Part shown: positions 11,457 through 55,124 of the stretch, piece by piece
How positions within the stretch are numbered: position 1 is the first letter of the stretch
Layout of the letters: every line of letters begins with the position of its first letter
Source: Ailanthus altissimus
Taxonomy: Eukaryota > Streptophyta > Magnoliopsida > Sapindales > Simaroubaceae
Length of the DNA stretch: 64,000 bases
Reading direction: 5' to 3'
NCBI GenBank assembly: GCA_946807835.1
Contig: OX327697.1
Coordinates: forward strand, 6,277,001-6,341,000
Position numbers and translations under genes: made by a program
The notes under the pieces: model-generated
Database searches by the model: none
What the model was told of the DNA's origin: nothing
The model's input: the letters and a program-made list of their open reading frames with translations, nothing else

Positions 11457-11461
11457 GTTAT

Positions 11462-13946: not shown

Positions 13947-13951
13947 GTTAT

Positions 13952-14690
13952 AATATGATTAAATTTGAAATTGATTCATTCCAAGTCAAATTACGCTAAA
14001 AATAATAATTTCAAATTTTATTTCGATTTCAATTATGTTAAATGTTATAATTTGATTAATTTTAAATCCAATTCCAAATTCAATTACGCTAAATTTTATA
14101 ATTTTAAATCTAATTTTGAGTTCAATTATGTTAAATATTATAATTTCAAATGTAATTTATAGTTCAAATTATGTTAAATATTATAATTCTAAATCCTAGT
14201 TTAATTTCAATTACGTTAAATGTTATTATTTTAAATATAATTTTTTATTTTTAATTATATTAAATATTATAATTTCAAATCTAATTTGGAATTCAATTAC
14301 GTTAAATATTATAATTTCAAATCATATTTCGAGTTCAATTACGTTAAATATTATAATTTCAAATTCTATTTCAATTTCATGTTAAATGTTATTATTTCAA
14401 ATCTAATTTGAATTTTAATTACGTTAAATATTACAATTCTAAATCCAATTTTTAGTTTAATTACGTTAAATATTATAATTCTAAATCCAATTTCGATTTT
14501 ATGTTAAATGTTATTATTCTAAATCTAATTTTGATTTTAATTATGTTAAATATTATAATTACAAATCTTATTTCGATATTAAATACGTTAAATATTATTA
14601 TTCTAAATTCATAATTAAATTCAGTTATGTTTAATATTATCATTCTAAATTCAGCTTTGAATTTAATTAAAATTTTTAAAAAAATTAAAT
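13952..14690. repeat. Right tandem-repeat array of the hAT-like element
   Basis: Continuation of the same repeat family beyond the inserted solo LTR: units of about 42-45 bp, 'aattacgttaaatattataatttcaaat' followed by variants of 'ctaatttcgagtt'. About 15 units can be counted. It ends in the GGTTCGGG subterminal part at about 14700. Confidence 0.8.
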
Positions 14691-31685: not shown

Positions 31686-33102
31686 TGATGAAAACTTGAA
31701 ATTACATATTTAATAAGGGTTTACATCATTATTTTGTATTATTAGTGTTTTTAATCCCCCTAATTTAAGTATATTTATAATATTATACATAATTAGCTTT
31801 TAATTATTTTGTGGTAGGTTTGGTAAAATAGGTATAACTCTTTACTTAAGAATTTAATTAGAGTGATTCTTGATTCTGTGAAGAGCTGCCTCAATAGGAT
31901 AACATATTGTATTTCACAAAGCATTTGCAATTTGAGCGTTTAGAGGGTGAAAATGGCATAAACTAGAACTAATCTATAGTACAGGCTCGGTTCGAATAGT
32001 CATCAGTATTTGGCCCATAACTATAGAAATACGTATCTAATATGTATGAGACACCTTAATTTAAAAAGATAAGAGATTTATCTACAACTTTAAGTTTTTT
32101 AGTGACAGCTAATTCAAACCACATCAAGTTCAAATTGGATAATCAAGTAGGTGCATTAATAATAATCAATGCAAATTAGTTGTCACCTTTCTTGACTTTT
32201 ATCATCCATGTGGTTTCCTCTTTATTTATCTTGATTTATCCATATTTGTTTTATAAATTAGTGGCTTGTTTATGCCTAAAGTATGTAATTAGAGAGCTAA
32301 ATTTTAGTTCAAAACACTTATCTTTTTTATTATCTCTTTGTTGTATTATTTCTATTGTTTACTATTCTAAAGTCATGTTATCTCTTCTTCCATCTCTTTT
32401 CTTTTTCTTTAGTTTTATTATGTTCAAGCTAAGGCAAAAGGGTGAAACTCTTGGCAAGGTAATAAAATTTACTTAACTCTTATTCATGAATTTAATGTTT
32501 CATTCTTAAGTTATGCAAATTTATATATAACGTATTTCTTTCATTTGTAATATTAATATCCTTTCTTGTAAAGTTGTGTGTCTTGATTCATTATAAAAAT
32601 ATTTCATAGTTGGCACAATAAATTCTTGAAACCATTTACAAGATTTGGCGTAGATATCATTTTTTGTAAATTGAGAGTCTTGATATATTTTAAACAAATG
32701 TAAAGATTGACATAATAAATATTTGAACTCATTTACAAGATTTTGTGTAAAATAATTGAAAGAAAGAAATACTAGTTAACATATAAATGGTGATGAACTT
32801 TAATTATTATATCTTTCGATTGGAACTTCTTGATGTGAGAATTTTAATTGAGTTATAAAAAGAATTGAATATATTCATATTTCATATGCCAAGAGTGGAC
32901 CCCCCTAACCTTGCCTTTTATTTTAATTGATTAATTAAATTATTATTTGTAAACATCTTATACTGATTTAATTTTCTTTAAAGTATTTATAATTTGTAAT
33001 TTTAATTCTATTTTTTTGTGGATCGACCTCGTTCTCACCGAGTTATTTGTTACTTCGACAATCCTGCACTTGAGAATACACTTCTATATTCTTGATGTGT
33101 CA
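31686..33102 (+). repeat. 5' LTR of the old Athila-like element
   Basis: Starts TGATGAAAACTTGAAATTAC and ends TCTTGATGTGTCA, 1417 bp. The end part 'ggatcgacctcgttctcaccg' and the CA end match the 3' LTR (53064-55124). A TATA box cannot be fixed with certainty. The 98-codon frame 32180-32476 within it is a shadow. Its sequence is largely different from the LTR of the young inner element, although both begin TGATGAA. Confidence 0.88.
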
Positions 33103-35740: not shown

Positions 35741-36990
35741 ATGTGTTTAATAAATTCATTTGAGTTAAATATACAATTAGATCCTAAAATTTCTGACATA
35801 TGTTCTTTACTTGACTGTGCACAGGTGATTGAAAATAAAAGATGGAAACCAAATTTTAAAGAATTAGGAGAAAATGAGGATAAACCGAACGAAATTTCAA
35901 AGTTGGAGTTAAAACCTCTACCTAAAGGACTGAAATATGCATTTCTTGGAAAGAAACAAACTTACCCGGTGGTAATCTCTTCTATAATCACAAGCGAACA
36001 AGAAGGTAAGTTAATTAAAGTATTGAAAATGCATAAAATACAATTAGGTAGACTTTAAAAGACATAAAATGCATTAATCCTTTGATTTTCACACATAGAA
36101 TACACCTAGAGGATGATGCCAAAACTATCCAACAACTTCAAAAGAAATTAAATTCACATATGAAAGAGGTAGTGAAAGTTGAAGTTCTCAAATTACTTGA
36201 AGTAGGAATCATCTATCCTATCTCAGATAGTAAGTGGGTAAGTCCTACTCAGGTAGTACCAAACAAATCTAGAATCACAGTCATTGAAAATGAAAAAGGT
36301 GAGTTAATACCAACTCGAGTCTCATCTAGTTGGAGGATGTGCATAGATTATAGGAAATTAAATTCGGCCACTAGAAAAGACCATTTTCCCTTACCATTCC
36401 TTGACCAAATTTTAACAAGAGTAGCAGGACATCCCTACTATTACTTTCTAGACGGATATTCTGGCTATTATCAAATTTTTATAGCACTAGAGGATAAAGA
36501 AAAGACTACATTCACATGCCTTTTTGAGACCTTTACTTTTAGAAGAATGCCCTAGTAACATTTTAAAGATGTATGTTAAGCATTTTTGGTGACATGGTTG
36601 AGTATTATTTAGAAGTTTTCATGGATGATTTAACTGTGTTTGGAAATTATTTGGATAATTGTCTTGAAAACTTAAAAAGGTCTTAAAAAGATATGAAGAA
36701 AATGGTTTTGTATTGAAATGGGAAAAATATCATTACATGGTTACTTTTGAAATTATTTTGGAATATGTAGTATCTTCTAAAGAAATTGAAGTGGATAAGG
36801 CAAAATTCAAACTCATTTTTCATTTGCCTCCATAAAAAATAGTCAGAGAAGTCCGATCATTTTTAGAACATGCTGGATTCTATAAGAGGTTTATAAAAAC
36901 TTTTAGTGCTATATCTAAACCTCTTAGTAACCTCTTAGCAAAAGATGTATCATTTGAGTAGACTCAAGTGTGTCAAAATTCATTTGAAAA
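35741..36990 (+). pseudogene. Reverse transcriptase of the old element
   Basis: Frame 35741-36058 is the protease-RT linker (ELKPLPKGLKYAFLG). Frame 36082-36555 starts the RT: SKWVSPTQVVPNKS, RMCIDYRKLNSATRKDHFPL, then FLDGYSGYYQI with a catalytic Asp, and FETFTFRRMP ending at a stop. The second catalytic box is at about 36620 as VFMDDLTVFG (MDD in place of VDD). The thumb/connection FYKRFIKTFSAISKPL is at about 36880. Multiple stops separate these pieces, so no enzyme is made. Confidence 0.9.
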
Positions 36991-37029: not shown

Positions 37030-37639
37030 TCTTGACTGGTCTTTACCTTTTGAGCTCATGTGTGATGCCAGTAACTATATTATTGGTACTATATTGAGAC
37101 AAAGAAAGGAAAGTAAACCCTATGTAATTTATTACATAATCAGAACTTTAAACAGTGCAAAAATGAATTACACAACAACTGAAAAAGAACTACTTGCTGT
37201 AATATTTGCATTAGACAAATTTTGTTCTTACTTAATTGGTTCTTCAACTATTGTATTTACTGACCATACTGCTGTAAGGTACTTAATGTCAAAACAGGAA
37301 GCAAAACCAAGAATGATTCGATGGATTCTATTGCATCAAGAATTTAATATCACTATCAAGGATAAGAACGGAGTTAAAAATTTTGTTGCAGATTACTTAT
37401 CAAGACTCGCATCAGATTCATCAACAGAAATAACATCTATTAATGATTTTTTTCTTAATGAATTTTTATTTTCTATTGTTACAATGTCTTGGTATGCTAA
37501 TATTATTAATTTTCTTGTAACAGGAGAATTACCACCTCAAGGGAATGCTCAAGACAAAAATAAATTTTTAATCGAGGTAAGAAAATTTTATTGGGATGAT
37601 CTTTATCTATTCAAATATTATCATAACCAAATATTTTGA
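37030..37639 (+). pseudogene. RNase H and integrase start of the old element
   Basis: A 193-codon open frame (37058-37639). It contains gypsy RNase H: MCDASNYIIGTILRQ with the first catalytic Asp, TEKELLAVIFALDKF with the catalytic Glu, TDHTAVRYL with the third acidic residue, then DYLSRLASD, and passes into the integrase N-terminal region. The first part of the domain has a stop at about 37026. This is the best preserved part of the old pol. Confidence 0.88.
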
Positions 37640-37956
37640 AGATGTATACCCGATAACGAGGTAAGTAAACTTATTGAATTTTGTCATTCTAAAGTATATG
37701 GGGGACATTTTTCATCAAAGAAAACAGCTGTAAAATCTTGCAGTGTGGATTTTATTGGCCCACTTTATTTAACGATATACATGCATTTTATATAACATGT
37801 GAAAATTGTCAAAAATTGGGATCAATTTCAAAACGAAACATGTTGCCTTTGAACCCCATTCTTGTTATTTAAATCTTTGATTGTTGGGGGATAAATTTCA
37901 TGGGACCATTTTCGCTATCATTTGAATTTACGTATATCTTAGTCACAGTAGATTAT

Positions 37957-39512
37957 TGATGAACACATGAAAATGCATGTTGTTAAAAGATTCAATCACC
38001 ATTTAATGTCACCAATTTTAGTATTTTCTGTATTTTTAGCTTGAAATAAAGTGTTCTCCTTAAATTGTGATTAATGAATGTTATTTGGACAGGTTTAGGT
38101 AAATTGGACATAACTCTCAATGTAGAAATCGAAATGAAGAAATTCTTGAACCTGGTGCAACATGACTCAATCTTACACAAATTTGAAGAATAGTGGAAAA
38201 GCCAAATCCAACATGTTATGGGCCAAAAATTGAGATACAACAGAATCGGACTACAACTCTTACCCAGCTTGACCCAACTCACGTATTTGGACCGTATCTC
38301 CCAAAATACGTACTCAATTGGTATAATTCTTGAAGCTGTGAACTTCTGACTTAACTATCAACAACTCGTATGTTTATGGTAAAGTCCAAATCAGCCGTTA
38401 TCATGGACCAAATCGCATTGCAAGTGGGTAGAATGGTTGTTGGCCGAATTCTGGTGTAGCTTTGGAAATTTGCTCATATCTCATTGGATACTCATCCAAT
38501 TTGCATGAAATCAGTGCCTATGGAAAGAAGAGTCAAAATTCTACAACTTTCATGTCGGTCGCAGAAGCTGAATTGATCATTTACATTATCCAAAACGTGC
38601 TGCAAGTGGATACACGAGTTATTGACTTAAAATTATTGAAGATTGATGTCATCCATGACATATGTCCATTCATTGCCTATATAAGGAGACCCTTAGGACG
38701 TTTTTAATAGACAATTTTCTCTCTTCTTTTATTCTCATTAACATGTATTGTAATTTAGGCTAGAGTTCCTAGCAAGGCTAAGAGATGAACTTTTATGTGT
38801 AGTAAATCTACTTTCATGCTTTGATTCGGTGTCAAGAGCTATAAATGTTGTAAGTTTGGTTTTGATTAAACTCTTATCTATTTTATTTTCTATAATCCAG
38901 AGGTTATAATTCTCATGTCTCATATATGTTCAGTCATGCTTTTCTTATGTGATTCATGTTGATTTATAATTGTTACTGGTTATATTGTTTTATATGTTAA
39001 TCTTTTACTGCAGTATTGTCAATTTGATATATTGTCGATCTTGGATAACATGTAAGGGCAATAAATGTTTGATATTCAAGTTAATCTTTTACTGCAATAT
39101 TGTCAAAATGATATATTGTCGATCTTAGATAACTTGTATAAATAACATGATGTGTGTTAATGCTTGCAAAGAGTTTAACTAAATCAAATACATGTGTTAT
39201 CAAATGTGCTATATATTACATACCTTCCGATTGATTGTTTAGGATGTGAAACTTTCAGTTGAGTTATAAATATCGAATCAAAGTATAGAGTAGATTTATA
39301 AAGCATAATTGTGATTCTCAAAGCCTTGCTTAAATCATCATAAGACATTTTTCTCAATTCATAGACAATTCTATCTCATCCGTTTAAATCAATTAACCCT
39401 TTGCTACTGCTTTAATATTTTACTTCACTAACCTATTTTGCCAAGAGCTTCCTCGTGGGATCGACACCTCAATCTATACTGCGATAGCCGCGTTATATTT
39501 TGAGCGTAAACA
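37957..39512 (+). repeat. 5' LTR of the young element
   Basis: Begins TGATGAACACATGAAAATGC and ends TTTTGAGCGTAAACA. TATA box TATATAAG at 38678-38685, preceded by the U3 region and followed by pyrimidine-rich DNA. The U5 end 'ctcgtgggatcgacacctc' is typical of Athila/Tat LTRs. It contains an internal near-duplicate, 'gttaatcttttactgca-tattgtcaa' at about 38996 and 39082. Three short frames inside it reappear, identical or nearly so, in the 3' LTR and are not genes. Confidence 0.95.
38678..38685 (+). promoter_or_regulatory. LTR promoter TATA box
   Basis: TATATAAG in 'ttgcctatataaggagaccc', 722 bases into the LTR. This is the only strong TATA box in the LTR, and the same bases are at 47117-47124 in the 3' LTR. 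It should drive the genomic transcript from the 5' LTR. Confidence 0.7.
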
Positions 39513-39518
39513 AAAATT

Positions 39519-39536
39519 TGGCGCCGTTGCCGGGGA
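39519..39536 (+). promoter_or_regulatory. Primer binding site (tRNA-Asp) of the young element
   Basis: TGGCGCCGTTGCCGGGGA is complementary to the 3' 18 bases of plant tRNA-Asp including CCA. It starts six bases after the LTR end. Used to start minus-strand DNA synthesis; a hallmark of Athila-type elements. Confidence 0.95.
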
Positions 39537-39651
39537 AGCACACTGAGCGAAAGTCGGTTGCGATTATAAATACTAAAGTGGTAACTTTGTATATTTTCTT
39601 TTCTTTGTAAACTCTTAGTTTATTTCCTTTGTTGTAATTTATTTATTATTC

Positions 39652-40175
39652 ATGGTTGGTTCTACCACCTAATTTATTTTGTTTTCTTTAGTTAATTTGT
39701 TATATTTTATATCATCTTAATGGCTGGTTTTACCGCCTAACTTCGTTCACTTTCTTTTATTTATTTATTGCACTTTATTTTCTTTAATTTATTTATTGCA
39801 CTTTTTTTTAATGGCTGGTTTTACCGCCTAACTTTGTTCACTTTCTTTTATTTATTTATTGTACTTTATTTCTTTAGTTAATTTATTGTATTTTCTTTTT
39901 ATTTTGTGGCTGGTTCTACCGCCTAACTTAGTTCCTTTATTTCTCATTGTACTCTATTTATTTATTGCACTTTTTTTTTATTGTACTTTATTTTCATTTT
40001 CTTTAGTTAATATGTTGTATTTTCTTTTTATGGCCGGTTCTACCGCATAACCTTTTATTTATTTACTTATTGTATTTTCTTTTTATTATTTATTTATTGT
40101 ACTTTTTTTTTTCGTATTTTATAGTCTTTTGTTTAGTTATTGTATTTATATTTCATGGTTGGTCTTACCACCTAA
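39652..40175 (+). repeat. Array of six 7-codon mini-ORFs in the leader
   Basis: Six 21-base units of the form ATG GCT GGT TTT ACC GCC TAA lie at 39652, 39720, 39811, 39906, 40030 and 40155. Each reads M-(A/V)-G-(S/F/L)-T-(A/T)-stop; the fourth begins GTG. The frame and the stop are kept in all six, though the third positions and some codons vary. GG-GGT can pair with ACC-CC around TTTT, so each unit is also a possible small hairpin. Spacers are T-rich ('tttatttatttattgcac'). They lie between primer site and gag start. Confidence 0.85.
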
Positions 40176-40267
40176 CTTACTTCTATTTCTTGTTGTGTTT
40201 ATTCCACTTCTTAATTTTCCTTAAGCATTTCTTTCCTTAAAAAAAAAAAATAAAATAATTAGGATGT

Positions 40268-43243
40268 ATGCATCGACCTAGAGACAAACGAGGAAGATTT
40301 GTGAGAGAACTAGAACTAGAACTAGAACCACTCCCACAATTTGTAAGTGAAGAGAATTCACCTTCTAGTTCATCTTGTAATTCTAACACAATGAGCCAAC
40401 ACGAAGAAAACCCCGTTAGAACTCTAAAAGATTACTTGCATCCTACTCGCACAGCCACACCATCATGCATTATATTTCCACCTAACATACCACATTCGGA
40501 TTTTAAACCTGGAATGATACAACTTCTTCCCACTTTTCATGGTCTAGATAGTGAAAATCCTTATGTACATGTTAGGGAATTTGAAGAAGTAATTGCCACC
40601 TTCCATAGCCAACCTGAAGCCATAGACACTGTTAGGCTTAAATTTTTCCCTTTTTCTTTGAAAGACAAAGCAAAGAGTTGGCTATACTCTTTGAGGCCGA
40701 GGTCTATAGGAACTTGGGCAGAAATGACCCAAGCATTTTTCAATAAATACTTCCCACAACACAAAACTAATGGCCTGAAAAGACAAATTTCTTCATTCTC
40801 CCAAAAAGACAGTGAAACCTTATATCAAGCATGGGAAAGGTTTAAAGAGTTGCTAAATCTGTGCCCTCACCATGGGTATGAAAATTGGCGCTTGGTTAGT
40901 TATTTCTATGAGGGACTCACAATTAGAGAGCGCCAATTTGTTGAGATGATGTGTAATGGGGAGTTCCTTCACAAAGATCCTGAGGAAGCCATAGAATTTC
41001 TTAATGACTTAGCAGAAAAAGCCCATACATGGACTGGACCTAGCATTGCTGAAAGCACAAATAGGTCACGACCCAATGGAGTTTTCCATCTTAAGGAAGA
41101 GGATAACCTCAAAGCCCAATTAGAGGTCTTAACTAGGGAGTTAGAGGCCTTGAAATCCAAGGATAGAAGGGTCACCCACACGGTTGCTAGAGTTGAGTCA
41201 CACGATGTCTGTTTTGTCTGTAGAGGAGCAGAACACTTAGCTCAGGATTGCCCCACGTATAGTGAGATGAGAGGGATATATGAGGAACAATGTAATGCCC
41301 TAGGGATGTACAAGAAGCCTTATTCACCCTACTCTGAAACATATAATCCTAGCTGGAGAAACCACCCAAATTTCAGTTGGAAATCGGACCAACAAGCCAA
41401 CAACCAATGGAAACAAGAACAACAAGCACCCAAGTCTTATGTTGCACCTCAATATAATGCACGACCAACTAGAAATTCTTTAGAGGATACATTACAAGCA
41501 TTTATGGAGGCACAAAGTAAGACTAATCAAAAATTTGAAACAATTCTTGCACAGGTGGTGGACGAAAACAAAGAAATCAAGAGTCAAATCACAAAATTGA
41601 CCAGTGCCTTAACTGTACAAGAGAGAGGTAAGTTTCCATCTCAACCTCAATCCAATCCAAAAGGACAATTCATGGCACAAGCTTCTACTTCTGATGTTCA
41701 AAATCTCAAAGAAGTCAATGTCATTACTACTCGAAGTGGTAAGATTGTAAGTGAACCTACTCCTGAAATTAACACATCTACGAGTAGTAAAGACGCCCCC
41801 CTTGAAAAAGAGGCCACAGTGGAAAAAGAGCCCGAAAGTAAGTTTTCAATCCCAGTGCCTTTTCCTCAAGCTCTTCGACCGGTTGGGAAAAATTCAGAAA
41901 TTCAAGGTGAGATTTTGGAACATTTGAAACAAGTTAAAATTAATCTTCCCTTGTTACATTTGATTAAGCAGGTTCCAACTTATGCCAAAGTCATCAAGGA
42001 TTTATGCACTATCAAAAGAAAACACCATGTGAAGAAAACTGCATTTTTGGCAGAACAGGTAAGTGCAGTGATTGAACAAAAGACACCACCCAAGTATAAA
42101 GACCCAGGATGTCCCACAATCTCCTGCCAAATTGGGACACATGAGTTTGGTCAAGCTTTATTGGACTTAGGAGCAAGTGTAAATTTAATGCCTTATTCTA
42201 TTTACTTGCAGTTAGGACTTGGTGAGATTAAACCAACCTCTGTAGTCCTACAATTAGCTGACCGATCAATCAAGAAACCACAGGGAATAGTAGAAGATGT
42301 TTTGTTGCAAATTGATAAATTTTACTACCCTGTTGATTTTCTTGTTTTAGATACTCATTCTGTTGTTAACATGGAGTCAAAAATCCCTCTTATTTTGGGG
42401 AGACCTTTTCTTGCCACTGCTAATGCTCTTATTGATTGCAGAAATGGTCTAATGAAATTATCTTTTGGGAATATGACTCTTGAGGTGAACATTTTTCATA
42501 TTGATAAGCAATCACGAGAAGAAAACGAATGCTATCATTCATATATGATAGACACACTTGGCGCGGAGGAAGCTTATAAAAATCATGGCTCTAATTCTTT
42601 AGAAAATCTCTTTGATTTTGATATTGAAGAATTGTATTATCCTGATGAAACAACTGATATGTTTAGTATTTTTGACTCACAGGATAAAGGGATTCGATTT
42701 TGGAAACCAGGCATTGAAAAGTTGCCATGTAAGAGGGAGAAACCAAAATCATCAAAACTCGAGACACCACGTGTCATCATTGGTGACCAAGGAACACATT
42801 TCAGTTCTAGAAAACCTCATAAAGCTTATTGGGCTGTCAAAGCCCTTAACTTTGATTTGAATGCTGCAGGTCTCCAGAGAAAGTTACAATTGTCAGAAAT
42901 AGAAGAGCTACGAAATGACGCATATGACAACTCCAGAATTTACAAAGCTAAAATGAAAGTAGCTCATGATAAACAGATCTCAAGGAAACACTTTGAGCCA
43001 AATCAACGGGTCTATCTTTATGATTCTCGATTGCATTTACACCCTGGAAAGTTGAGATCTCGATGGACTGGTCCATTTATGGTAAGACATGTTTTTCCTA
43101 ATGGTGCTGTTGAAATAGAAGACCCCACTGATGGACGGACTTTCAAAGTGAATGGACAGCGGCTAAAAAGCTACGTGGAAAAGGTAAACGACTCTATGTA
43201 CCTAGGCGAGATCCCTCTTGTGGATCCTGTCTATCGTGATTGA
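40268..43243 (+). CDS. Gag-protease-integrase tail polyprotein, pol deleted in frame
   Basis: One uninterrupted 991-residue ORF. Gag domain about residues 80-260 (begins IQLLPTFHGLDSENPY), a short coiled coil at about 280-300, CCHC zinc knuckle C315-C318-H323-C328, then a Gln/Asn-rich linker. Aspartic protease about 600-755 with the active site LLDLGASVNLM (D633) and LILGRPFLATANALID. After KSSKLETPR (about 835) the reading jumps to integrase core residues VIIGDQGTHF (D840, second catalytic Asp), then at once to HKAYWAVKALNFD and the C-terminal module KLRSRWTGPF (G935-P936-F937). RT, RNase H, the integrase zinc finger, first Asp and catalytic Glu are absent. The old element shows what is missing. 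Gag and protease look functional; integration enzymes must come in trans. The start at 40268 is the first ATG after the mini-ORFs; ATGCATCGACC is preceded by an A-rich tract. Confidence 0.95.
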   Translation: MHRPRDKRGRFVRELELELEPLPQFVSEENSPSSSSCNSNTMSQHEENPVRTLKDYLHPTRTATPSCIIFPPNIPHSDFKPGMIQLLPTFHGLDSENPYVHVREFEEVIATFHSQPEAIDTVRLKFFPFSLKDKAKSWLYSLRPRSIGTWAEMTQAFFNKYFPQHKTNGLKRQISSFSQKDSETLYQAWERFKELLNLCPHHGYENWRLVSYFYEGLTIRERQFVEMMCNGEFLHKDPEEAIEFLNDLAEKAHTWTGPSIAESTNRSRPNGVFHLKEEDNLKAQLEVLTRELEALKSKDRRVTHTVARVESHDVCFVCRGAEHLAQDCPTYSEMRGIYEEQCNALGMYKKPYSPYSETYNPSWRNHPNFSWKSDQQANNQWKQEQQAPKSYVAPQYNARPTRNSLEDTLQAFMEAQSKTNQKFETILAQVVDENKEIKSQITKLTSALTVQERGKFPSQPQSNPKGQFMAQASTSDVQNLKEVNVITTRSGKIVSEPTPEINTSTSSKDAPLEKEATVEKEPESKFSIPVPFPQALRPVGKNSEIQGEILEHLKQVKINLPLLHLIKQVPTYAKVIKDLCTIKRKHHVKKTAFLAEQVSAVIEQKTPPKYKDPGCPTISCQIGTHEFGQALLDLGASVNLMPYSIYLQLGLGEIKPTSVVLQLADRSIKKPQGIVEDVLLQIDKFYYPVDFLVLDTHSVVNMESKIPLILGRPFLATANALIDCRNGLMKLSFGNMTLEVNIFHIDKQSREENECYHSYMIDTLGAEEAYKNHGSNSLENLFDFDIEELYYPDETTDMFSIFDSQDKGIRFWKPGIEKLPCKREKPKSSKLETPRVIIGDQGTHFSSRKPHKAYWAVKALNFDLNAAGLQRKLQLSEIEELRNDAYDNSRIYKAKMKVAHDKQISRKHFEPNQRVYLYDSRLHLHPGKLRSRWTGPFMVRHVFPNGAVEIEDPTDGRTFKVNGQRLKSYVEKVNDSMYLGEIPLVDPVYRD

Positions 43244-43491
43244 TCAGGTTCAATCTATTTGTACCATATTTTATATTTTGTCTATATTTTATCTTTTGAC
43301 TTTCTATTTTTGCTTTTATTTTCCTGCACATTTTATTTTACTTTATTTTCTTCTTTTTATTTTTTCTTCAGTGTGATTTTATTTCCCGGTCAAGTGGCGG
43401 ATACGGTACTCCGTGACTATTAAAGTCGGTTTCTCAGTTCCCTAAAAACTGTCCCTCAAACTGTGCATTCATCTCTTTTCTTTCTTTCAAA
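43244..43491 (+). promoter_or_regulatory. Gene junction with likely 3' splice site and conserved block
   Basis: A long pyrimidine-rich tract ends in TTTTTTCTTCAG at about 43363-43374, a good splice acceptor. It is followed at about 43395-43440 by the block AAGTGGCGGATACGGTACTC, then CGTGACTATT, AAGTCGGTTT. In the old element the same order is kept: 'tttttacttgcag' at about 48858-48870 and then 'aagtggtggataacggtaca' at about 48914. A spliced mRNA from the LTR promoter could therefore express the next genes, as proposed for env-like genes of Athila elements. Confidence 0.5.
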
Positions 43492-44040
43492 ATGGATCGC
43501 ATTCTTGCCAACCTTAAAAAACGTTTTCCTTCATTTCCTCAAAATGCTCTACTTAAGATTTACAAAGCACGGTGTGAAAGACTAAGGCTATTGATGTTGG
43601 GTAATATCCCTGTGGACCTTCGTTGGTTAATTGAAGCCAAGGTTCGGTTGTCTGGTGAGTTTGAAAATGATTTTGTTTCTCATATGCCTGGTCTTGGAAG
43701 AAGCTCTTATGCCAAAAGGCGACGAGCAAAAAGGTTACAAGTCTGTCATAAATGTGCTCGATGGAATTGTAATCGGAGTTGTCGTTCTTTAGGATTCGTA
43801 TCTATAAATCGAGAAGACAAAATTCAGTTCATTAAGGATGGACTGAGTAAGGAGTCTTTGGATGATATCCTATTGACTCTTGAGACGCATCCCTGTGGGC
43901 TCGTGCAACGTGAACTTCTCGATTTATGGAACAAATTCAAAAATGAACATCAACGGTATAGTCTCGGGAATCTGACTCTAAAAGACCCTGTTTGCCAATT
44001 TATAAGAAAATTGGATGGGAAGCCTATCCCCGACCCATAG
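43492..44040 (+). CDS. Basic cysteine-rich protein resembling carlavirus nucleic-acid-binding protein
   Basis: A 182-residue intact ORF. A basic patch at 70-81 (R70, K75-R78, K80, R81; local sequence GRSSYAKRRRAKR) is followed directly by four cysteines, C85-x2-C88-x4-C93-x3-C97, a likely zinc finger, then an amphipathic QFIKDGL segment. A GRSxYAxRRRA-type arginine-rich patch placed just before a Cys finger and followed by a QFI-x-G-like segment is, from memory, the layout of the small 3'-terminal cysteine-rich proteins of carlaviruses, which bind nucleic acid and for some members suppress RNA silencing. The finger here is shorter than I recall for those, and the C-terminal 60 residues have no match I know. 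N-terminal residues 1-60 are rich in Leu and basic residues. Position: the env-like site of Athila elements, upstream of LOG. Function in the element is unknown; nucleic-acid binding is likely from the sequence, silencing suppression is conjecture. Confidence 0.7.
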   Translation: MDRILANLKKRFPSFPQNALLKIYKARCERLRLLMLGNIPVDLRWLIEAKVRLSGEFENDFVSHMPGLGRSSYAKRRRAKRLQVCHKCARWNCNRSCRSLGFVSINREDKIQFIKDGLSKESLDDILLTLETHPCGLVQRELLDLWNKFKNEHQRYSLGNLTLKDPVCQFIRKLDGKPIPDP

Positions 44041-44355
44041 AGGGCGTTTAAGCCGTTACTGGACGTAAAACCAGAGGAAGATGTGAGCCACAATCACAAC
44101 TACTTGTAAATACATGTGTTTTAATTTCAAACTTTATTTTATGAATAGTAGGGCTACTCATGTAGATGTCTTAAATTCAAATCTTTTTGTTCAATAATGC
44201 ATGCGGGTCATTATGTTTAAATTTTTGTGTTTTATTTTTAACTTTCTTTTGACAAACTGTCGGGTTACCATAATCATTGTTGTCATTTGGCACTCTATAA
44301 ATACAACACCTCAGTTTCTTCATTTTCATATATTGAGATAAAGGTGAGAGTAGAT
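44041..44355 (+). promoter_or_regulatory. Spacer between the two extra genes with TATA box before LOG
   Basis: Non-coding 315 bp. TATAAATA (44296-44303) in 'ggcactctataaatacaac' is about 55 bases before the LOG start codon. The old element keeps 'gactctataaatacattg' (about 50981-50996) at the same place, about 70 bases before its decayed LOG start. A pyrimidine-rich likely 5' UTR ('cctcagtttcttcattttc') follows. This looks like a private promoter for LOG, independent of the LTR. Confidence 0.65.
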
Positions 44356-45003
44356 ATGGAGGAAACCCAAGTTCGACAATTTCGAAATATATGTGTATTT
44401 TGTGGATCTAGTCCTGGGGAGAGTAAAGTGTTCGTAGAAGCAGCAAACAATCTAGGAAAAACATTAGCTGCAAGAAAAATTCATTTGATTTATGGAGGAG
44501 GTAGCCTTGGGCTAATGGGGTGTGTGTCAACAGCTGCACATTTAGGAGGAAGTCAAGTTTTAGGTATTATTCCTACAGCTTTGGCCGTGGGAAACCTGAC
44601 CGGGAAAACAATAGGGGAAGAATTACAAGTCTCATCCATGCATGAACGTATAGCCAGAATGCTTTGCAATGCAGACGCTTTTATTGCTTTACCAGGTGGT
44701 TTTGGTACTTTGGAAGAAATTTTTCAAATTGTCTCTTGGGCCCAACTGAATATCCACCGAAAACCCATAGGTTTGTTGAATGTTAATAACTATTTTGATT
44801 GCTTACTTTGTTTTCTTGATCAAGCTGTGGAACAGAATTTTATTTCACATTCGGCGCGACAGATCCTGGTTTCTGCTACTGAGGCGGATGAATTGATTAA
44901 CAAATTACAGGCAGTTACCTACGAACCTGACCCAGCAATAACTCGGATCGATTGGTCAGTGGGCCTTAACAAGCGAAAATTGGATCTGACACTCCGTTTG
45001 TAA
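44356..45003 (+). CDS. LOG-like: LOG-type cytokinin riboside 5'-monophosphate phosphoribohydrolase, captured
   Basis: 215-residue ORF of the LONELY GUY family, which frees active cytokinin bases from their riboside monophosphates in the cytosol. Visible: Rossmann-like start RNICVFCGSSPG (10-21), phosphate-binding LIYGGGSLGLMG (44-55), GIIPTAL (70-76), MHER with the catalytic Arg (R98), and PGGFGTLEE (113-121) with the catalytic Glu (E121), then WAQLNIHRKPIGLLNV. Length fits plant LOGs. The residue after R98 is Ile where plant LOGs have Lys as I recall. I chose ATG 44356 (MEETQVRQF) because the ATG at 44287 lies before the TATA box. No introns, whereas plant LOG genes have several, so capture was through an mRNA. 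A decayed homologue is in the old element (51057-51708). The tail after about 195 (KRKLDLTLRL) differs from common LOGs. Confidence 0.93.
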   Translation: MEETQVRQFRNICVFCGSSPGESKVFVEAANNLGKTLAARKIHLIYGGGSLGLMGCVSTAAHLGGSQVLGIIPTALAVGNLTGKTIGEELQVSSMHERIARMLCNADAFIALPGGFGTLEEIFQIVSWAQLNIHRKPIGLLNVNNYFDCLLCFLDQAVEQNFISHSARQILVSATEADELINKLQAVTYEPDPAITRIDWSVGLNKRKLDLTLRL

Positions 45004-46380
45004 ATTTTTCTTTTTATTTATTTATTTATCAGTACCATCATTTTAGTTTATATTTGCTTAAGTGTCTCTCAGGTTTGTTTCTTTCAAATAACTGACGTTT
45101 CAGGTAATGTCTCCTATACTTTATCTCTTTCTATTTAAACATTGAGGACAATGTTTCATCTGGTTTGGGGGGAGGATAGTAGACATACGTTGCATTTTGC
45201 AAAAAAAAATAAAAAAAAATAAAAATAAAAAAAAAAAATAAAAAATTTTGTGGTCCGACATTTGATTAAAATGGCAGAGTAAAGAGTTCATTCTTGAACT
45301 CTTGAGACGCATTCTAGGTCAAATTAGAATGGCAGAGTAAGGAGTTTTAGTACTAACTTTTGAAATGCATTTTAACTAACTTTTTGTTATTTTGTTTTAT
45401 ATTTCATGCATTGTCGTTTACTGCTTGTAGTCTTGGTAATTCTTGTATAAAGGAATTTGCTTTTCTGCCTAAGTATGATTTCAGAATTGATTAGGTTGAG
45501 TCACTATTTCTATCTAGGTTACTAAAGAATGACTTCCAAAATATTTTTGAGCACAATGCTAAGCCTTGTGGTAAGATGGATGATTCAATTTATATAGCCA
45601 AGAGAATTCCCATGTTTAAGTATATATTTCTAATCTCACATATCTTTTGTGAGTAAGTGGAAAGGTTGAGAAAACAGCTTATGAACTTTCATTGATCCTT
45701 TGAATTGGTTAATTTTTGTTTAGAATGATATTATTTGAATTAAGGGATAAGTTGGTTACATTTGTGCATAATATAATTTGGTGAGAAACCTTTGTAATGC
45801 TTCCTTGTATTCTTCAAAAAAAAAAAAAAAAAAAAACACAAAAGTACCAAAAACAAGAAAAAAAAAAAAAAAAAAAAAGCAATTCAGTTTAATAAAGTCT
45901 TCATTCAATTTTAGAAGACAAATACCTTGTAAAACAGTTTTCTCACCAAGTTATAATTGTATTATTCTCACCAGCCAATTAAAGTTCTAAAGTTGACGTA
46001 TGATATGAATAATTGATTTTTAAACAAATAATTTTCCTATCTTCGGATCAATGTTAGTTTATATGTCTGTCCTTAAAATTGACTTTTTCTTGAGTGCTTA
46101 ACTGTTTTCCAACTCCATAAGAGAAGTCCTAACCTTTTAAACAGTCATACACATGTGAGGATATGGAGTTGAGGCTTTTACTTGGAGAAATTCTCAAGGC
46201 TATATCTATTGTGGTTTGTGGTTAGATGGTTATGGCTTAGTTCACACACACACAAATTATGGAAGTTGTAATTGAAAAAACCATGATAGCAACAGTGATC
46301 TCGAACTGACGTTTTGATTGAAGTGCTTAGGTAGTTTTGCATATTCTATTTACGCTTGAATTGCTAGAGACTAGCAACAA
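45004..46380 (+). other. 3' untranslated region of the young element
   Basis: About 1.4 kb without a gene. It has A-rich tracts at 45199-45246, 45816-45836 and 45858-45878. A 58 bp tandem duplication starts 'atggcagagtaa' at 45271 and 45329; the old element has a similar pair at about 51918 and 51975. Words like 'ctaggttactaaagaa', 'atggagttgaggcttttacttgg' and 'ttgaattgctag' are kept in the old element in the same order, so this long 3' region belongs to the lineage. The frame 45778-45990 is only poly-A translation. Confidence 0.8.
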
Positions 46381-46395
46381 GCTGGTTGGGGGCTG
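46381..46395 (+). promoter_or_regulatory. Polypurine tract region of the young element
   Basis: GCTGGTTGGGGGCTG just before the 3' LTR; the GGGGG run is the likely plus-strand primer. The old element has GCTGGTTGGGGGTTG at 53049-53063. The preceding 'ctagcaacaagctggttggggg' is identical in both. Confidence 0.75.
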
Positions 46396-47951
46396 TGATG
46401 AACACATGAAAATGCATGTTGTTAAAAGATTCAATCACCATTTAATGTCACCAATTTTAGTATTTTCTGTATTTTTAGCTTGAAATAAAGTGTTCTCCTT
46501 AAATTGTGATTAATGAATGTTATTTGGACAGGTTTAGGTAAATTGGACATAACTCTCAATGTAGAAATCGAAATGAAGAAATTCTTGAACCTGGTGCAAC
46601 ATGACTCAATCTTACACAAATTTGAAGAATAGTGGAAAAGCCAAATCCAACATGTTATGGGCCAAAAATTGAGATACAACAGAATCGGACTACAACTCTT
46701 ACCCAGCTTGACCCAACTCACGTATTTGGACCGTATCTCCCAAAATACGTACTCAATTGGTATAATTATTGAAGCTGTGAACTTCTGACTTAACTATCAA
46801 CAACTCGTATGTTTATGGTAAAGTCCAAATCAGCCGTTATCATGGACCAAATCGCATTGCAAGTGGGTAGAATGGTTGTTGGCCGAATTCTGGTGTAGCT
46901 TTGGAATTTTGCTCATATCTCATTGGATACTCATCCAATTTGCATGAAATCAGTGCCTATGGAAAGAAGAGTCAAAATTCTACAACTTTCATGTCGGCCG
47001 CAGAAGCTGAATTGATCATTTACATTATCCAAAACGTGCTGCAAGTGGATACACGAGTTATTGACTTAAAATTATTGAAGATTGATGTCATCCATGACAT
47101 ATGTCCATTCATTGCCTATATAAGGAGACCCTTAGGACGTTTTTAATAGACAATTTTCTCTCTTCTTTTATTCTCATTAACATGTATTGTAATTTAGGCT
47201 AGAGTTCCTAGCAAGGCTAAGAGATGAACTTTTATGTGTAGTAAATCTACTTTCATGCTTTGATTCGGTGTCAAGAGCTATAAATGTTGTAAGTTTGGTT
47301 TTGATTAAACTCTTATCTATTTTATTTTCTATAATCCAGAGGTTATAATTCTCATGTCTCATATATGTTCAGTCATGCTTTTCTTATGTGATTCATGTTG
47401 ATTTATAATTGTTACTGGTTATATTGTTTTATATGTTAATCTTTTACTGCAGTATTGTCAATTTGATATATTGTCGATCTTGGATAACATGTAAGGGCAA
47501 TAAATGTTTGATATTCAAGTTAATCTTTTACTGCAATATTGTCAAAATGATATATTGTCGATCTTAGATAACTTGTATAAATAACATGATGTGTGTTAAT
47601 GCTTGCAAAGAGTTTAACTAAATCAAATACATGTGTTATCAAATGTGCTATATATTACATACCTTCCGATTGATTGTTTGGGATGTGAAACTTTCAGTTG
47701 AGTTATAAATATCGAATCAAAGTATAGAGTAGATTTATAAAGCATAATTGTGATTCTCAAAGCCTTGCTTAAATCATCATAAGACATTTTTCTCAATTCA
47801 TAGACAATTCTATCTCATCCGTTTAAATCAATTAACCCTTTGCTACTGCTTTAATATTTTACTTCACTAACCTATTTTGCCAAGAGCTTCCTCGTGGGAT
47901 CGACACCTCAATCTATACTGCGATAGCCGCGTTATATTTTGAGCGTAAACA
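46396..47951 (+). repeat. 3' LTR of the young element
   Basis: Same length as the 5' LTR, with four differences seen. Its end AAACA is followed by the second ATTAT target copy (47952-47956), and old integrase sequence resumes at 47957. Confidence 0.95.
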
Positions 47952-48784
47952 ATTATGTCTCAAAATAGATTGAGGCTATTCTCTGTCGAAATAATGATCA
48001 TAAAACAGTTATGAAATTTTTGAAAGAAAATATCTCGAGTCAATTTGGAATCCCTTGAGCCATTATAAGCTATGGGGTAAGCATTTTTGTAATAGGCCAT
48101 TTGAAACATTAATGAAAAAAATATGGTATTACTCATAAAGTTGCCACCCCTTATCATTCTCAAACAAGTGGACAAGTTGAACTAGCAAATAAGGAGATAA
48201 AACAAATTTTGACAAAAACTGTAAACCCAAATCACAATGATTGGTCTTTAAGACTTAATGATACATTTTGGGCTTATAGAACTACTTTTAAAACTTTATT
48301 TGGTACGTCTCCTTATAGGATAGTTTATAGAAAACTCTATCACTTACTTGTGGAACTTGAGCATAAAGCCTACTGGGCCATTAAAACTTTCAATGCAAAT
48401 CTTGAATCTGTTAGACAGATATGTAAATTACAAATAAATGAACTTGAAGAATTATAAAATGATGCATATGAAAATTCAAAAATTTATAAATCTAAAATCA
48501 AAGCTTTTCATGATAAAAACATTCAAAGAAAAATATTTGATGCTGGTGATAAGATTTTGTTTTATAATTATCGACTTCACATGTTTTCTAAAAAATTAAG
48601 ATCAAGATAGAGTGGCCTTTTTATTGTGAAACATGTGTACCCTTACGGAACAATTGACATTGAAAATCTTAGAAATGGTAATTTGTTTAAGGTAAATGGG
48701 CAAAAACTCGAGTCGTTTCTAGAAAATCAAACTTTTTATGAAGATTTTGTGTCCCTGTCTAACCCTTGTTACGAGACCAATTAA

Positions 48785-49008: not shown

Positions 49009-50709
49009 ATAGATAACATTCTAGTGAATTTGAAAATATGTTTTCCCTCATTGCCTCAAAATGCCTTAAAGAAATTTTACCAAACAAGATGTGAAAAATT
49101 AAGGTTATTGATAAGGGCAAATTTTTCATATATTTTCTCATGTTTTTATTATTGATATTTTATGGTTTTATGAGAATAGATGGCTATTTATGTGCATTAT
49201 TATTATTTATAGGGACTTGAACGAAATTTAAAGTACATGTCCATCGCCCCAGCGCTGAAATAGTGATCGAAATAAGAAAAACGACTTGCTTAAGTCGCGT
49301 CTAGCGCCCCAGCGCTATCAACATACCGCGCCAGCGGTGAAGCCGTTTTCATGCAGCGCCCCAGCGCCAAGATCCTACCGCTCCAGCGGTAATAGCTTTT
49401 TCACGCGTCGCTCCAGCGACAGATGCATAGCGCGCCAGCGGTAGTGCGAGTCCTAGTCCGACGAGAATTGAGATTTTCAAGCTCATATCAATCCCTATAT
49501 AAAGCCACTCGTTCCCAGCCTTCAAGAATGAATTCAAGACGACCCAAGAGCACCAAGAATATAGAGCATAAGTCTTGGAGAGCAATAGGAGCTTAATTGA
49601 AGCAACTTTAAAGAGAGATACAAGACGTTCTTCGGCATCAAGAGTTCCTAGGCAGCGCAATTAAGAGCAATTCGACGTCTATATCGGTTTGCTAATAATT
49701 GTATCATGATTTATAATTATTTTTACTGCTGTTCTCTTGTAGCCATGAGCTAACTTATTTTCTAGGGTTAATATTTGAACTCAATATGTGCGCTTAAATT
49801 GCCATATCTTTTAGTATTTAATAAACTTAGTCCTTTATTATTTAAATTATTTGTGTTTAATGCTTCAATATATCTGGCCAATATATGGTGAATGAATTGA
49901 TAATATTTTGATAAACTTGGAAGAGGAATCATAATATTTAGACCTAGGTAATTTGATGCATGATTGTAGAGTAACATTCAATGTTGCATATGCAAGTTTC
50001 AATTTAGGATAGGAATATACCTAGTTGGCATGTATGATTAATAAGACCTAATCTTAATGAATCTTAGTTTATTACAAGTACCATAGGAATATAGGTATTT
50101 GGTAAACTAAGATATACTTGCATGACCTTGGAAGAGGCTTGTGAATACATTAGTGTCTTGATCAATAATAAAGACTAAGTGAGTTAAATATTAGAGGATT
50201 AATCATTAAAAAATATATTGAGGGATAATATTAATCCTAGGTTTTCTCTACGTTGCTATCTTTAAATCTCATTGCATTGTGTTTTTGCTTTTATATTTCT
50301 TACATTCATTCTTAGATTTTTATTTTTCTGAATAATTATTAGGAAGATATAATTTTAGTAATTGGTTAAAAAGAAAAAATTATCCCTGTGGGTTCGACAT
50401 CCGACTTATTTAGTCTCTTTATTACTTGCATACGATAGTGTGTACTTATACTTAATTTATGATATAGAAATATCGCATCAGTTATTAAAGATTATGAATA
50501 TACCTGCTGATGTACGTTGGTTATTGAAGTCAAATTTCGATTGGCAGGTGAGTTTTTAGACTTATTAATTTCCTACATATCTGGCTTAGGTAAAAGCTCT
50601 TTTGCAAAAAGCGAAGGGCAAAAAGATTAAATATTTGTTACAAGTGTGCACGCATAACTTGCAACACATGTTAAAAAAAGTGGATGAGAAGCCTATCCTC
50701 GACCCATAG
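49009..50709 (+). pseudogene. Decayed cysteine-rich gene of the old element
   Basis: Homologue of the gene at 43492-44040. The start codon is ATA (49009-49011). The N-terminal part (about 34 codons) ends at 49108 where solo LTR J1 is inserted with duplication GTTAT; it resumes at 50486 with IPADVRWLL. A stop lies at about 50556, and a frameshift in the basic patch at about 50595-50615. Two Cys pairs of the finger can still be seen at about 50635-50670. The following about 60 codons are deleted, and the end (KPILDP then TAG at 50707-50709) is kept. Confidence 0.85.
49109..50480 (+). mobile_element. Gypsy-type solo LTR J1 in the decayed cysteine-rich gene
   Basis: Starts TGATAAGGGCAAATT and ends ATATCGCATCA with duplication GTTAT (49104-49108, 50481-50485). 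Same family as 6375-7823. A GC-rich block with many 'gcgccccagcgc' and 'cgctccagcg' words (49232-49450) precedes the TATA box 'cctatataaagcc' (about 49492-49504). End region 'tccctgtgggttcgacatcc' as in Athila/Tat LTRs. The frame 49349-49660 is a shadow. Length 1372 bp. Confidence 0.9.
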
Positions 50710-51056
50710 AGGATGTTTAAGCCTTTTCTAGACATAAAACCAGAGGAAAATGTGAACCATAATCACAACTACTTGTACATATATATTGTAGCTCTTATTT
50801 TTAAATGTTTTATTTTAACCTCAAACGTCTTCTCTAACAACGAACCACTCATAGTCGATTTTGAAAATGTAACCAACAACGAACCACCCATAGTCGATTT
50901 TGAAAATTTTACATTTAAAGCTTAATCTTATCCATTAACAACCAACTACCCATGTGACTAAACTTTACAATACCTTTTGACTCTATAAATACATTGCATT
51001 ATTTCTGCATCTTCATACAAACTCAAAATCATTCAAGAGAGAGGGTAAGTGTAATA
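50710..51056 (+). other. Spacer before decayed LOG with TATA box and 40 bp tandem repeat
   Basis: Homologous to 44041-44355. A unit 'aacaacgaaccactcatagtcg...' of about 39-40 bp occurs twice between about 50836 and 50911. TATAAATA at about 50984-50991 matches the young element's. Confidence 0.7.
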
Positions 51057-51708
51057 ATGGAAGGAACATCAACTCGTAAATTTATAAAAATTTGTCTTTT
51101 ATGGATACAGCCTTGAAAAAAATGGAGAGTTTATAGAAACAGCAAAAACCTTTGGTAAAGTGTTAGCTGAGTGAAAAATTCATTTAGTATATGGGGGAGG
51201 TAGTATTGGATTAATGGGATGTGTAGGAACTGTTGCACAAAATAAAGGCAGTCGAGTTTTTGGTATCATACCGAAATCTCTAGTTGTTGGGAATATTGTA
51301 GGAAAAATAATTGGGGATGAGTTATAGGTATCATCAATGCATGAACGAATGCCTTTTATGCTTCGGAATGCTGATGCCTTCATAGCTCTACCTGGAGGTT
51401 TTGAAACTTTAGAGGAAAATTCTCAAATTGTCTCATGGGCACAATTGCAAATTCACCAAAAACCAATTGATTTGTTAAATGTTGATGATTTTTATAATGA
51501 GTTATTATGTTTTCTTGATTATGCGGTAGAAAAATAGTCTGTCTCATCTGCAGCACGACGGATCCTCATTTCTGCTTCAACTATTGATCAGTTACTCAAT
51601 GAATTACAAGCTTTTATATATCTATCTGATCCAATAGTGCATAAGATAGATTGGTATACTGATGATAGTGAAAAGAAATGTAAGATAGATTTGACGCTTT
51701 ATCTGTAG
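51057..51708 (+). pseudogene. Decayed LOG gene of the old element
   Basis: Homologous over its whole length to 44356-45003, also without introns. ATG at 51057 (MEGTSTRKFIKICL). The N-terminal phosphate region has a stop near 51114 and another at about 51174; then LVYGGGSIGLMGCVGT is intact, a stop follows at 51327, and frame 51337-51537 reads [27 protein letters not shown]. The Gly of GT in PGGxGT is Glu here, and a further stop lies at 51535-51537. The C-terminus LDLTLYL-like and stop at 51706-51708 align with the young copy. Not functional. Confidence 0.9.
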
Positions 51709-53063: not shown

Positions 53064-55124
53064 TGATGAACACTTGAAATTACAAATTTAATAAGGGTTT
53101 TACATTATCGTTTTGTATTACTAGTGTCTTTAACCCTCCTAATTTAAGTATATTTATAATATTGTATCTAATTAACTTTTAACTATTTTGTGGTAGGTTC
53201 AGTAAAATGGGCAAAACTTTTTATTTCGAACAAAAAAAAAGAAGAATTACAATAAAGGGATTTGCTCAAAGCAAGAGGAAAAGGAAATATGGTATAAAAA
53301 AAAACAAAAATTCAAGTCAGTTTAATCTCTATACGCCTCGCCTATTACCAGGTCCAACCTTTCTACTAAGCCAATGACTACCCCTTTTCCAGCGTTTTCA
53401 GCTTCACGATTTAGTATATTCCTAAAAGTGAAACTGAAATAGAGACTGACTTCTTGGTAGTTTGGTAAGCAATATCCGTCCTTGTTGGCCAAGGCAGGGC
53501 AGAGTAAGATAGTTTAAGTGGAATGTCCCAGGTAAGGTCAAAGCGATTTACAGCAAAGTCAATTTGGTACAAGCTGGGATCAGGGACTGAAGTCAGCTAA
53601 TAGGATAGATCACCAAAAAGGAATGGGCGAAAGTATTTCATATCCTCTTTTCTTTAAGGAATATTCTTTTCTCAAAGTTCTCTTTGCGAGAACGGATTAG
53701 TGAATCTTTGGCCTATAGTTTGGATGGCTCTAAGCTCAAGACTCCACACTTAGTTTGAGGTGTACATGTCTGCAAAGAGAAAAACTGTGCCAAATACAAC
53801 TTCGTCCTTATGGAAGGTCAAGCGATTTGGGATCTCGATCGATTCCTATTCGCTTAAGAATCCGATTGGAGTGATTCTTGATCCTGTAAAAAGCCGACTC
53901 AATGGGATAATATATTGTATTTCATAAGGCATTCAAAATTCGAGCGTTTAGAAGGTAAAAATGGCCTAAAACAGAATTGATCTACAGTACAGACCCAATC
54001 CGAATAGTCATCAGTATTTGGTTTATAACTATAGAAATACGTATCTAATATGTATGAGACAACTCAATTTGATAAGATAAGAGACTTATCTACAACTTTG
54101 ATATTTTAAGTGACAACTAATTCAGACCACATCAATTTTAAATTGGATAATCAAATGGGTGTATTAATAATAATCAATGCAAATTAGTTGTCACCCTTAT
54201 TAACTTTTATCATCCATGTGGTTCCCTTTTCATTTGTCTTGATTTATCCATGTTTTTCTATAAATAGGTGGCTTGTTTATGCCCTAAGCATATAATTAGA
54301 GAGCTAAATTTTAGTTCAAAACACTTATCTTTTGTATTATCTCTTTGTAGTATTATTTCTCTTATTTACTATTTTAAAGTCATGTTATCTCTTCTTCCAT
54401 CTCTTTTCTTTTTCTTTAGTTTTATTATGTCCAAGTAATTTTCTTTTTGTTGAGGTGAAAGGCTGAAACTTTTGGCAAGGTAATAAGATATACTTAACTC
54501 TTATTTATGAATTTAATATTTCATTATTAAATTATACAAATTTATATATGATATATTTATTTTGTTCGTAATATTAATACCCTTTCTTGTAAAGTGGTAT
54601 ATCTTGATTTATTATAGACAATTTTTATAGTTGGCAAAATAAATTCTTGAAACCATTTACAAGATTTGGCATAGATACTATTTCTTGTAAAGTGGGAGTC
54701 TTGATTTATTGTAGACAAATATAAAGATTGGCATAATAAATACTTGAACTCATTTACAAGATTTAGTGTATAATAATTAAAAGAAATAAATATTAGTTAA
54801 TATATAAATAGTGATGAACTTTAATTGTTATATCTTCCGATTGGATACTCCTTTGTATGAGGATTCCAATTGAGTTATAAAAGGAGTTGAATATATTCAT
54901 ATTTGATATGGCAAGAGTGGATCCTCATAACCTTAGCTTTTATTTTAATTGGTTAATTGAATTATTATTCGCAAACATCTTATACTGCTTTAATTATCTT
55001 TAAAGTATTTATAGTTTATAATTTTAATTTCATTTCCTTGTAGATCAACACCATTCTCATCGGGTTATTTATTACTTCGACAATCCTGCACTTAGGAATA
55101 AACTTCTATATTCTAGACGTGTCA
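53064..55124 (+). repeat. 3' LTR of the old element with a foreign insert
   Basis: Starts TGATGAACACTTGAAATTAC and ends TCTAGACGTGTCA, followed by the CAAGA duplication. It is 2061 bp, but without the insert at about 53222-53858 it is about 1424 bp, close to the 5' LTR (1417 bp). Confidence 0.88.
53222..53858. other. Foreign 0.64 kb insert in the 3' LTR, possibly mitochondrial
   Basis: This stretch is absent from the 5' LTR (break between 'actcttta' and 'cttaagaatttaatt' at about 31832-31840). It is clearly richer in GC than its surroundings and has no LTR-like ends. Words such as 'gaatgggcgaaagtatttcatatcctcttttctttaagg' style pyrimidine/purine alternation and 'gagaacggattagtgaatc' look like plant mitochondrial spacer DNA to me. 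No gene recognised. Filler DNA from another source is the alternative. Confidence 0.45.

Follow-up and report, generated by a model that had tools for sequence, protein, structure and literature searches.

The window analysed, i.e. a stretch of 64,000 nucleotides of Ailanthus altissimus DNA (contig OX327697.1 of assembly GCA_946807835.1, forward strand, positions 6,277,001 to 6,341,000), contains an intact gene of the cytokinin-activating LOG family next to a gene related to the nucleic-acid-binding proteins (NABPs) of carlaviruses. Both are located inside a young LTR retrotransposon, which is itself inserted into an older, decayed and related element that carries remnants of the same two genes. 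The positions of these features are collected in Table 1.

Table 1 Positions, within the window, of the young and older elements and of the features assigned to them
Feature	Position	Strand	Basis or remark
Older decayed related element, insertion site of the young one	31686-55124	+	LTR matches
LTRs, older element	~31686-33102 and 53064-55124		~86% identical
RT remnant, older element	36160-36555		RVT_1, 6e-7
RNase H remnant, older element	37058-37639		RT_RNaseH, 3.9e-28
Target duplication ATTAT	37952-37956 and 47952-47956		Flanks young element
Young LTR retrotransposon, non-autonomous	37957-47951	+	LTR pair, TG...CA ends, target duplication ATTAT
5' LTR, young element	37957-39512	+	
Primer-binding site TGGCGCCGTTGCCGGGG	39519-39535	+	Sequence
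gag-protease ORF, fused in frame to an integrase-end-like tail	40268-43243	+	
NABP ORF, kin to cysteine-rich nucleic-acid-binding proteins of the carlavirus type	43492-44040	+	182 aa; Pfam
TATA element ACTCTATAAATACA	44292-44305	+	Upstream of LOG; common to older copy
LOG-family ORF	44356-45003	+	215 aa, intact, intronless
C-terminal LTLRL, LxLxL (EAR-like) motif	44986-45000	+	Predicted disordered tail
Polypurine tract	46384-46395	+	Sequence; adjoins 3' LTR
3' LTR, young element	46396-47951	+	
NABP remnant, older element	49009-50665	+	Matches at 49009-49122 and 50520-50665; split by insertion
TATA element, older LOG copy	50980-50993	+	14-nt common word
LOG pseudogene, older element	51057-51708	+	59% protein identity over residues 14-215

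The young element is bounded by a pair of LTRs with TG and CA ends and by a 5-bp target duplication, and possesses a primer-binding site (which we take to be of the tRNA-Asp type), a polypurine tract and a gag gene, i.e. the features by which an LTR retrotransposon is recognized. Its LTRs display 4 differences over 1556 positions which, if plant sites accumulate 1.3e-8 substitutions annually, would date the insertion to about 0.1 million years ago, or up to ~0.5 million years at slower rates. Pfam searches with the long gag-protease ORF returned Retrotrans_gag (6.4e-22), together with Asp_protease_2 (5.5e-4) and zf-CCHC (0.035), both below cut-off, and gave no match in this ORF with RT, RNase H or the integrase core. 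The tail of the ORF (residues 833-989) matches positions 48308-48772 of the older element; the term 'integrase tail' is a provisional name taken from reading the sequence, Pfam having no match there. We assign the element putatively to an Athila-like family of Ty3/gypsy and, lacking RT, it is non-autonomous. A preliminary description of this DNA had placed LOG inside a young LTR element, between the integrase tail and the polypurine tract; this placement holds, but the NABP ORF sits between the tail and LOG.

The LOG ORF comprises 215 codons with zero internal stops. That it is an intact member of the LOG family, as originally claimed, was confirmed by its matches with PF03641 (8.7e-39, Pfam), with TIGR00730 (1.5e-50; 171.4 bits with this subfamily model against a cut-off of 96.35) and with the AtLOG3 structure 2a33 (3.9e-66), as well as by its predicted fold. 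The protein P0001, which is identical with the window LOG, was modelled with confidence (pLDDT 88.6, pTM 0.85), and the top match of this model in the PDB was chain B of AtLOG3 2a33, with an rmsd of 1.2 Å and 54% identity. The NCBIfam equivalog NF058542 gave the window LOG 117.2 bits against a cut-off of 300; AtLOG3 (132.4) and AtLOG8 (116.2) also fall below 300, and plant LOGs are therefore not told apart by this threshold. The motifs GGGSLGLMG, MHER and PGGFGTLEE are all present in the ORF, as are R98 and E121, the catalytic arginine and glutamate that correspond to R99 and E122 in CgLOG. To this extent the hallmarks listed in the preliminary description stand, but the base/prenyl pocket departs from them. 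AtLOG3 (At2g37210) and AtLOG8 (At5g11950), with 54 and 51% identity respectively by structural alignment, share with the window LOG the fold, the PGGxGTxxE motif and the catalytic pair; unlike these plant enzymes, the window LOG has Lys99 and Glu124 replaced, carries an LxLxL tail and is mobile.

The older element contains a related copy of LOG at the same place, and this bears out the earlier claim that the gene is copied with the element. The older copy is a pseudogene with three in-frame stops and an early frameshift. Downstream, both elements in the window have the same order, with NABP (broken in the older element) followed by LOG, which indicates that the arrangement belongs to the family rather than to one copy. 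Positions 48140-48454 of the older element, which had been read as integrase, gave no significant Pfam match. The insertion that splits the older NABP (49123-50519) is probably another repeat family, to judge from its part at 49667-50448, which is 75% identical with 7013-7798. A further insertion, at 53227-53852 within the older element's 3' LTR, has no match to the corresponding 5' LTR, is unlike its surroundings and is possibly organellar DNA. Elsewhere in the window, a repeat of ~1.2 kb occurs in both orientations at several places in 3476-26580 and at 57781-59028, with ~70-85% identity, and tandem-like repeats are found at 10736-11465 and 13943-14676.

The NABP ORF exceeds the Pfam gathering scores of two viral families, namely Viral_NABP (2.5e-7; 31.3 versus 23 bits) and Carla_C4 (1.5e-6; 28.5 versus 20.9 bits). 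Like the cysteine-rich NABPs of carlaviruses and allexiviruses, it displays these matches over a basic, cysteine-rich middle; unlike them, it is encoded by an LTR retrotransposon. A search with this protein gave 539 relatives with plant sources among them, those named including Populus, Xanthoceras, Acer and Rhamnella, and of the best 120 of the 539, Viral_NABP matched 110 and Carla_C4 104 at an E value of 0.01. The relative P0121, 98% identical with the window NABP, was modelled in its place; the model is weak (pTM 0.35) and a fold search with it against viral structures gave none with E < 0.001. The NABP profile likewise had no match among PDB sequences up to E 1, and our search of the open-access literature found no report of an NABP gene in a retrotransposon. 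Within a hand-copied subset of the relatives, four pairs of LOG and NABP proteins came from the same source and from identically sized contigs, against ~0.2 pairs expected; these contigs have 8723, 4511, 2128 and 1558 bases and their LOG rows are P0001, P0012, P0093 and P0102. NABP and LOG are thus probably linked in a further four contigs besides both window elements. Excerpts of one study describe viral cysteine-rich proteins as silencing suppressors, one of them being a transcription factor that induces hyperplasia (PMC12172455). The stretches around and after the NABP stop (44000-44110 and 50660-50780) are strongly conserved between the copies though mostly non-coding.

Apart from the stretch after the NABP stop, the linker that precedes LOG has diverged between the copies, save for the word ACTCTATAAATACA, which begins 64 nt before the LOG ATG in the young element (44292) and 77 nt before it in the older one (50980). 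A common word of 14 nt was reached in none of 500 mononucleotide shuffles, the longest being 13. Its TATA-like sequence and its retention suggest that it may serve as an internal promoter for LOG. In both copies a splice-donor-like sequence, GGTGAGA or GGTAAGT, lies 10-20 nt before the LOG ATG (44340-44356 and 51040-51057), and leader splicing upstream of LOG is possible.

The preliminary description had proposed to compare copies by dN/dS and to build a tree with host LOGs. Between the young and older copies of LOG, dN was 0.28 and dS 1.65 over 202 codons, giving a dN/dS of 0.17 (bootstrap 0.09-0.29, with 279 of 300 resamples finite), well off 1 and indicative of purifying selection, although dS is here near saturation and the ratio comes from one DNA pair; a separate alignment gave 0.20. 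For NABP in the same pair of elements the ratio was 0.24 (bootstrap 0.11-0.51, 288 of 300 finite, 87 codons). Saturation of dS lowers the precision of the LOG ratio, and the partly neutral decay of the older LOG copy is expected to have raised dN/dS. No related loci turned up in viral contigs when P0001, P0121 and both alignments served as queries, which leaves the two copies in the window as the basis of dN/dS. For gag and the integrase tail, synonymous sites are saturated between the two elements, and at the protein level LOG retains 59% identity, with 39-49% for the gag-protease pieces, 45% for the integrase tail and 49-64% for the NABP pieces. In the tree, built from hand-picked rows, 33 element-type LOGs were split from 28 sampled host LOGs by a branch with 100/100 support, a topology that would fit one capture of LOG. 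On the one DNA pair compared and the hosts sampled, LOG showed neither the dN/dS near 1 nor the grouping inside host LOGs that would have told against the preliminary description.

To survey the wider family we took the best 120 LOG rows of 7923 that passed (7999 candidates were scored, host and bacterial LOGs included). Reevesia and Diplodiscus are represented among these 120 by many loci and Xanthoceras by four; Populus, Paulownia, Melia, Primulina and Pterospermum also contribute, and the cluster P0118, with 327 members, is listed as well. For these rows the label 'element LOG' is a provisional one, derived from grouping and from many copies per genome; direct linkage is shown by the two window copies and, by same source and contig size, by the four LOG rows paired with NABP relatives above. 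In addition P0002, which is annotated as a chimera, contains a piece with a weak resemblance to the window gag-protease (46 columns, 43%, E 3e-4). As these protein lists consist of predicted ORFs, intact copies are over-represented in them. Two Populus proteins annotated as LOGL10, P0058 and P0074, show the altered pocket (Leu99, His124) along with an element-type LxLxL tail, and are probably retrotransposon genes. Annotation is affected, in that some such copies, e.g. the Populus 'LOGL10', are listed as host LOG genes.

One difference between the element-type and host proteins lies in the pocket. As a comparison set we used the best 120 host-type LOGs from a search with AtLOG3 and AtLOG8, which covers LOG1/3/4/8 types, probably lacks LOG5/LOG7 types and contains some metagenome proteins. 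Lys99 and Glu124 are both present in 120/120 of this set. In the window LOG they are replaced by Ile and Gln respectively, with Met95, His96 and Trp128 kept, so that the full adenine/prenyl-site set of Met, His, Lys, Glu and Trp is not found. Among the 120 listed relatives, five keep both residues, one keeps Lys99 only and 114 keep neither, Lys99 being changed to Ile, Met or Leu together with a change of Glu124 to Gln or His. The catalytic pair R98 and E121, on the other hand, is kept in 112 of the 120 and lost in eight. The full host pocket is retained in P0002, P0003, P0045, P0100 and P0102, four of which are in the tree, nearest the host side; as P0102 comes from a contig of the same size as that of an NABP relative, the two-gene cassette may predate the pocket change. 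In excerpts of the CgLOG study (PMC4979012), Lys100 is assigned to both the adenine and the prenyl site, Lys100 and Glu125 are both in the proposed prenyl site, and Glu125 is contributed by the neighbouring subunit. With this assignment, the paired loss of Lys99 and Glu124 fits a joint function across the dimer. The same excerpts state, without itemizing the mutants, that alanine replacements in the AMP site, except S19A, nearly abolished CgLOG activity, and loss of Lys99 could hence also mean weak activity. Wheat LOGs from several groups vary in their products even though the known substrate residues are conserved in them, according to part of another report (PMC11593424), which means that sequence alone cannot settle activity. 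The window LOG is probably a working enzyme.

A second difference is found at the C-terminus. P0001, like the window LOG, ends in LDLTLRL, within a tail of low model confidence (pLDDT ~44-51). An LxLxL motif in the last seven residues is present in 96 of the 120 listed relatives (102 with looser letters) and in 0/120 host-type LOGs. Divided by pocket, the motif occurs in 94 of 114 rows without the host pocket, in one of five with it (P0102) and in the one intermediate row; rows that lack it, including 20 of those 114, are mostly truncated or altered at the end. Among the forms taken by the EAR repression motif is LxLxL, as stated in excerpts of PMC9956375. The tail, or indeed the sister group of the element LOGs, could come from host proteins of the LOG5/LOG7 type.

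Steinbauerova and colleagues reportedly described in 2011 two Athila-like elements with similarity to LOGL4. The statement in the preliminary description that no retrotransposon with a LOG gene had been described proved to be wrong, since the excerpted text of PMC9289625 reports the LOG-type YgdH domain in Gypsy consensus sequences from two species of Citrus and, when no filter was applied, also from Populus trichocarpa, and describes this result as agreeing with Steinbauerova et al. 2011. Like the window element, these Citrus and Populus elements carry a LOG-family domain as an extra gene in a plant Ty3/gypsy element; the excerpts name the YgdH domain only, and an NABP partner, the pocket change, LxLxL, the TATA element and a test of selection are absent from them. 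The orchid Ty3/gypsy elements with an m6A demethylase, treated in the same excerpts, resemble the window element in having added a host-type enzyme, but the enzyme is a different one and a viral NABP partner goes unmentioned there. The portions consulted of PMC7264820 and PMC6317226 contain no passage on LOG. What is new here is the pairing of LOG with NABP, the pocket residues changed together, the motif in the tail and the TATA element common to both copies, along with the signs of selection, and not the presence of LOG in a retrotransposon.

To the interpretation that LOG is a long-maintained accessory gene of this Athila-like family, held in a selected two-gene cassette and encoding a working but retuned enzyme, we would give an even chance. 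It draws on the second LOG copy, the low dN/dS, the branch between element-type and host LOGs, the kept fold, phosphate/ribose site and catalytic pair, the joint pocket change, the LxLxL tail, the link with NABP and the TATA word common to both copies. One alternative is that the protein is a canonical cytokinin activator, converting iPRMP or tZRMP into free cytokinin as host LOG does and so promoting division of cells in which the element is active. The retained fold, Arg98/Glu121, PGGxGT, Met95, His96 and Trp128 are what such an enzyme would show, and the relatives that keep the host pocket, nearest the host side of the tree where sampled, agree with it; however, two residues invariant in the host-type set are Ile and Gln in the window LOG and are both replaced in nearly all of the listed relatives, and the excerpted CgLOG work assigns the equivalent of one of them, Lys100, to the adenine and prenyl sites (PMC4979012). 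We regard this alternative as rather unlikely. The LOG body might instead be mainly an enzymatically weak, stable nucleotide-binding dimer that presents LxLxL to TOPLESS-type corepressors, as the loss of pocket residues, the frequency of this motif among the listed relatives, its absence from the host-type set and its predicted disordered context would allow. Retention of the catalytic Arg and Glu in most relatives is hard to explain without catalysis, and we consider such a regulator quite improbable.

Two further explanations would deprive the gene of any role in the element. That LTR elements can capture genes is established in principle and the young element is itself non-autonomous, and LOG might accordingly be a functionless passenger derived from a host transcript captured by chance; against this stand the dN/dS value, the better conservation of LOG than of gag, and the occurrence of the gene both in two elements that differ in age and in numerous predicted copies, which together make a passenger very improbable. 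An assembly error or a local duplication of a host LOG seems more remote still; nothing in its favour came to light, and we give it hardly any weight, as it conflicts with the target duplication, the matched LTRs, the absence of an intron, the grouping apart from sampled host LOGs and the copy in the older element, as well as with the finding of the identical P0001 on an ENA contig of 8723 bases, the size of the contig that carries the 98% identical NABP P0121. Both the passenger and the artefact are disfavoured by the second LOG copy in the older element together with dN/dS.

Under the accessory-gene interpretation, an ancestor of the family would have captured a cellular LOG mRNA, and LOG would now be transcribed from its own TATA promoter and not only from the LTR. 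The element LOG would hydrolyse a nucleoside monophosphate but favour another base than host LOG does, its tail may bind TOPLESS-type corepressors, and NABP may act as the viral cysteine-rich proteins do, i.e. in silencing suppression or hyperplasia. Jointly, LOG and NABP might render the cell more favourable to expression of this family of elements. Without RT, the young element would have to be mobilized in trans. Supply of cytokinin by the element LOG, which the preliminary description had envisaged, is possible, and a germ-line benefit to the element is conjecture. A bolder version, which we hold only tentatively and think unlikely as a whole, is that of a host-manipulation cassette maintained in rosids and asterids, in which NABP blunts silencing and/or drives proliferation alongside a captured LOG that has been retuned to a new nucleotide and has gained a TOPLESS-binding EAR tail, with expression from an internal promoter.

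Plant retrotransposons often carry extra genes, yet few of these have a testable function. For LOG there is a well-studied assay, and with signs of selection and a defined difference in the pocket the question of its substrate is answerable in vitro. NABP connects a family of retrotransposons with a family of RNA-virus proteins that is known for silencing suppression and that in one member causes hyperplasia, and the two genes together make it testable whether transposable elements, like viruses, reprogramme the cells of their hosts. If the host-manipulation reading were true, the cassette would amount to a programme resembling virulence, but in an element that is inherited vertically.
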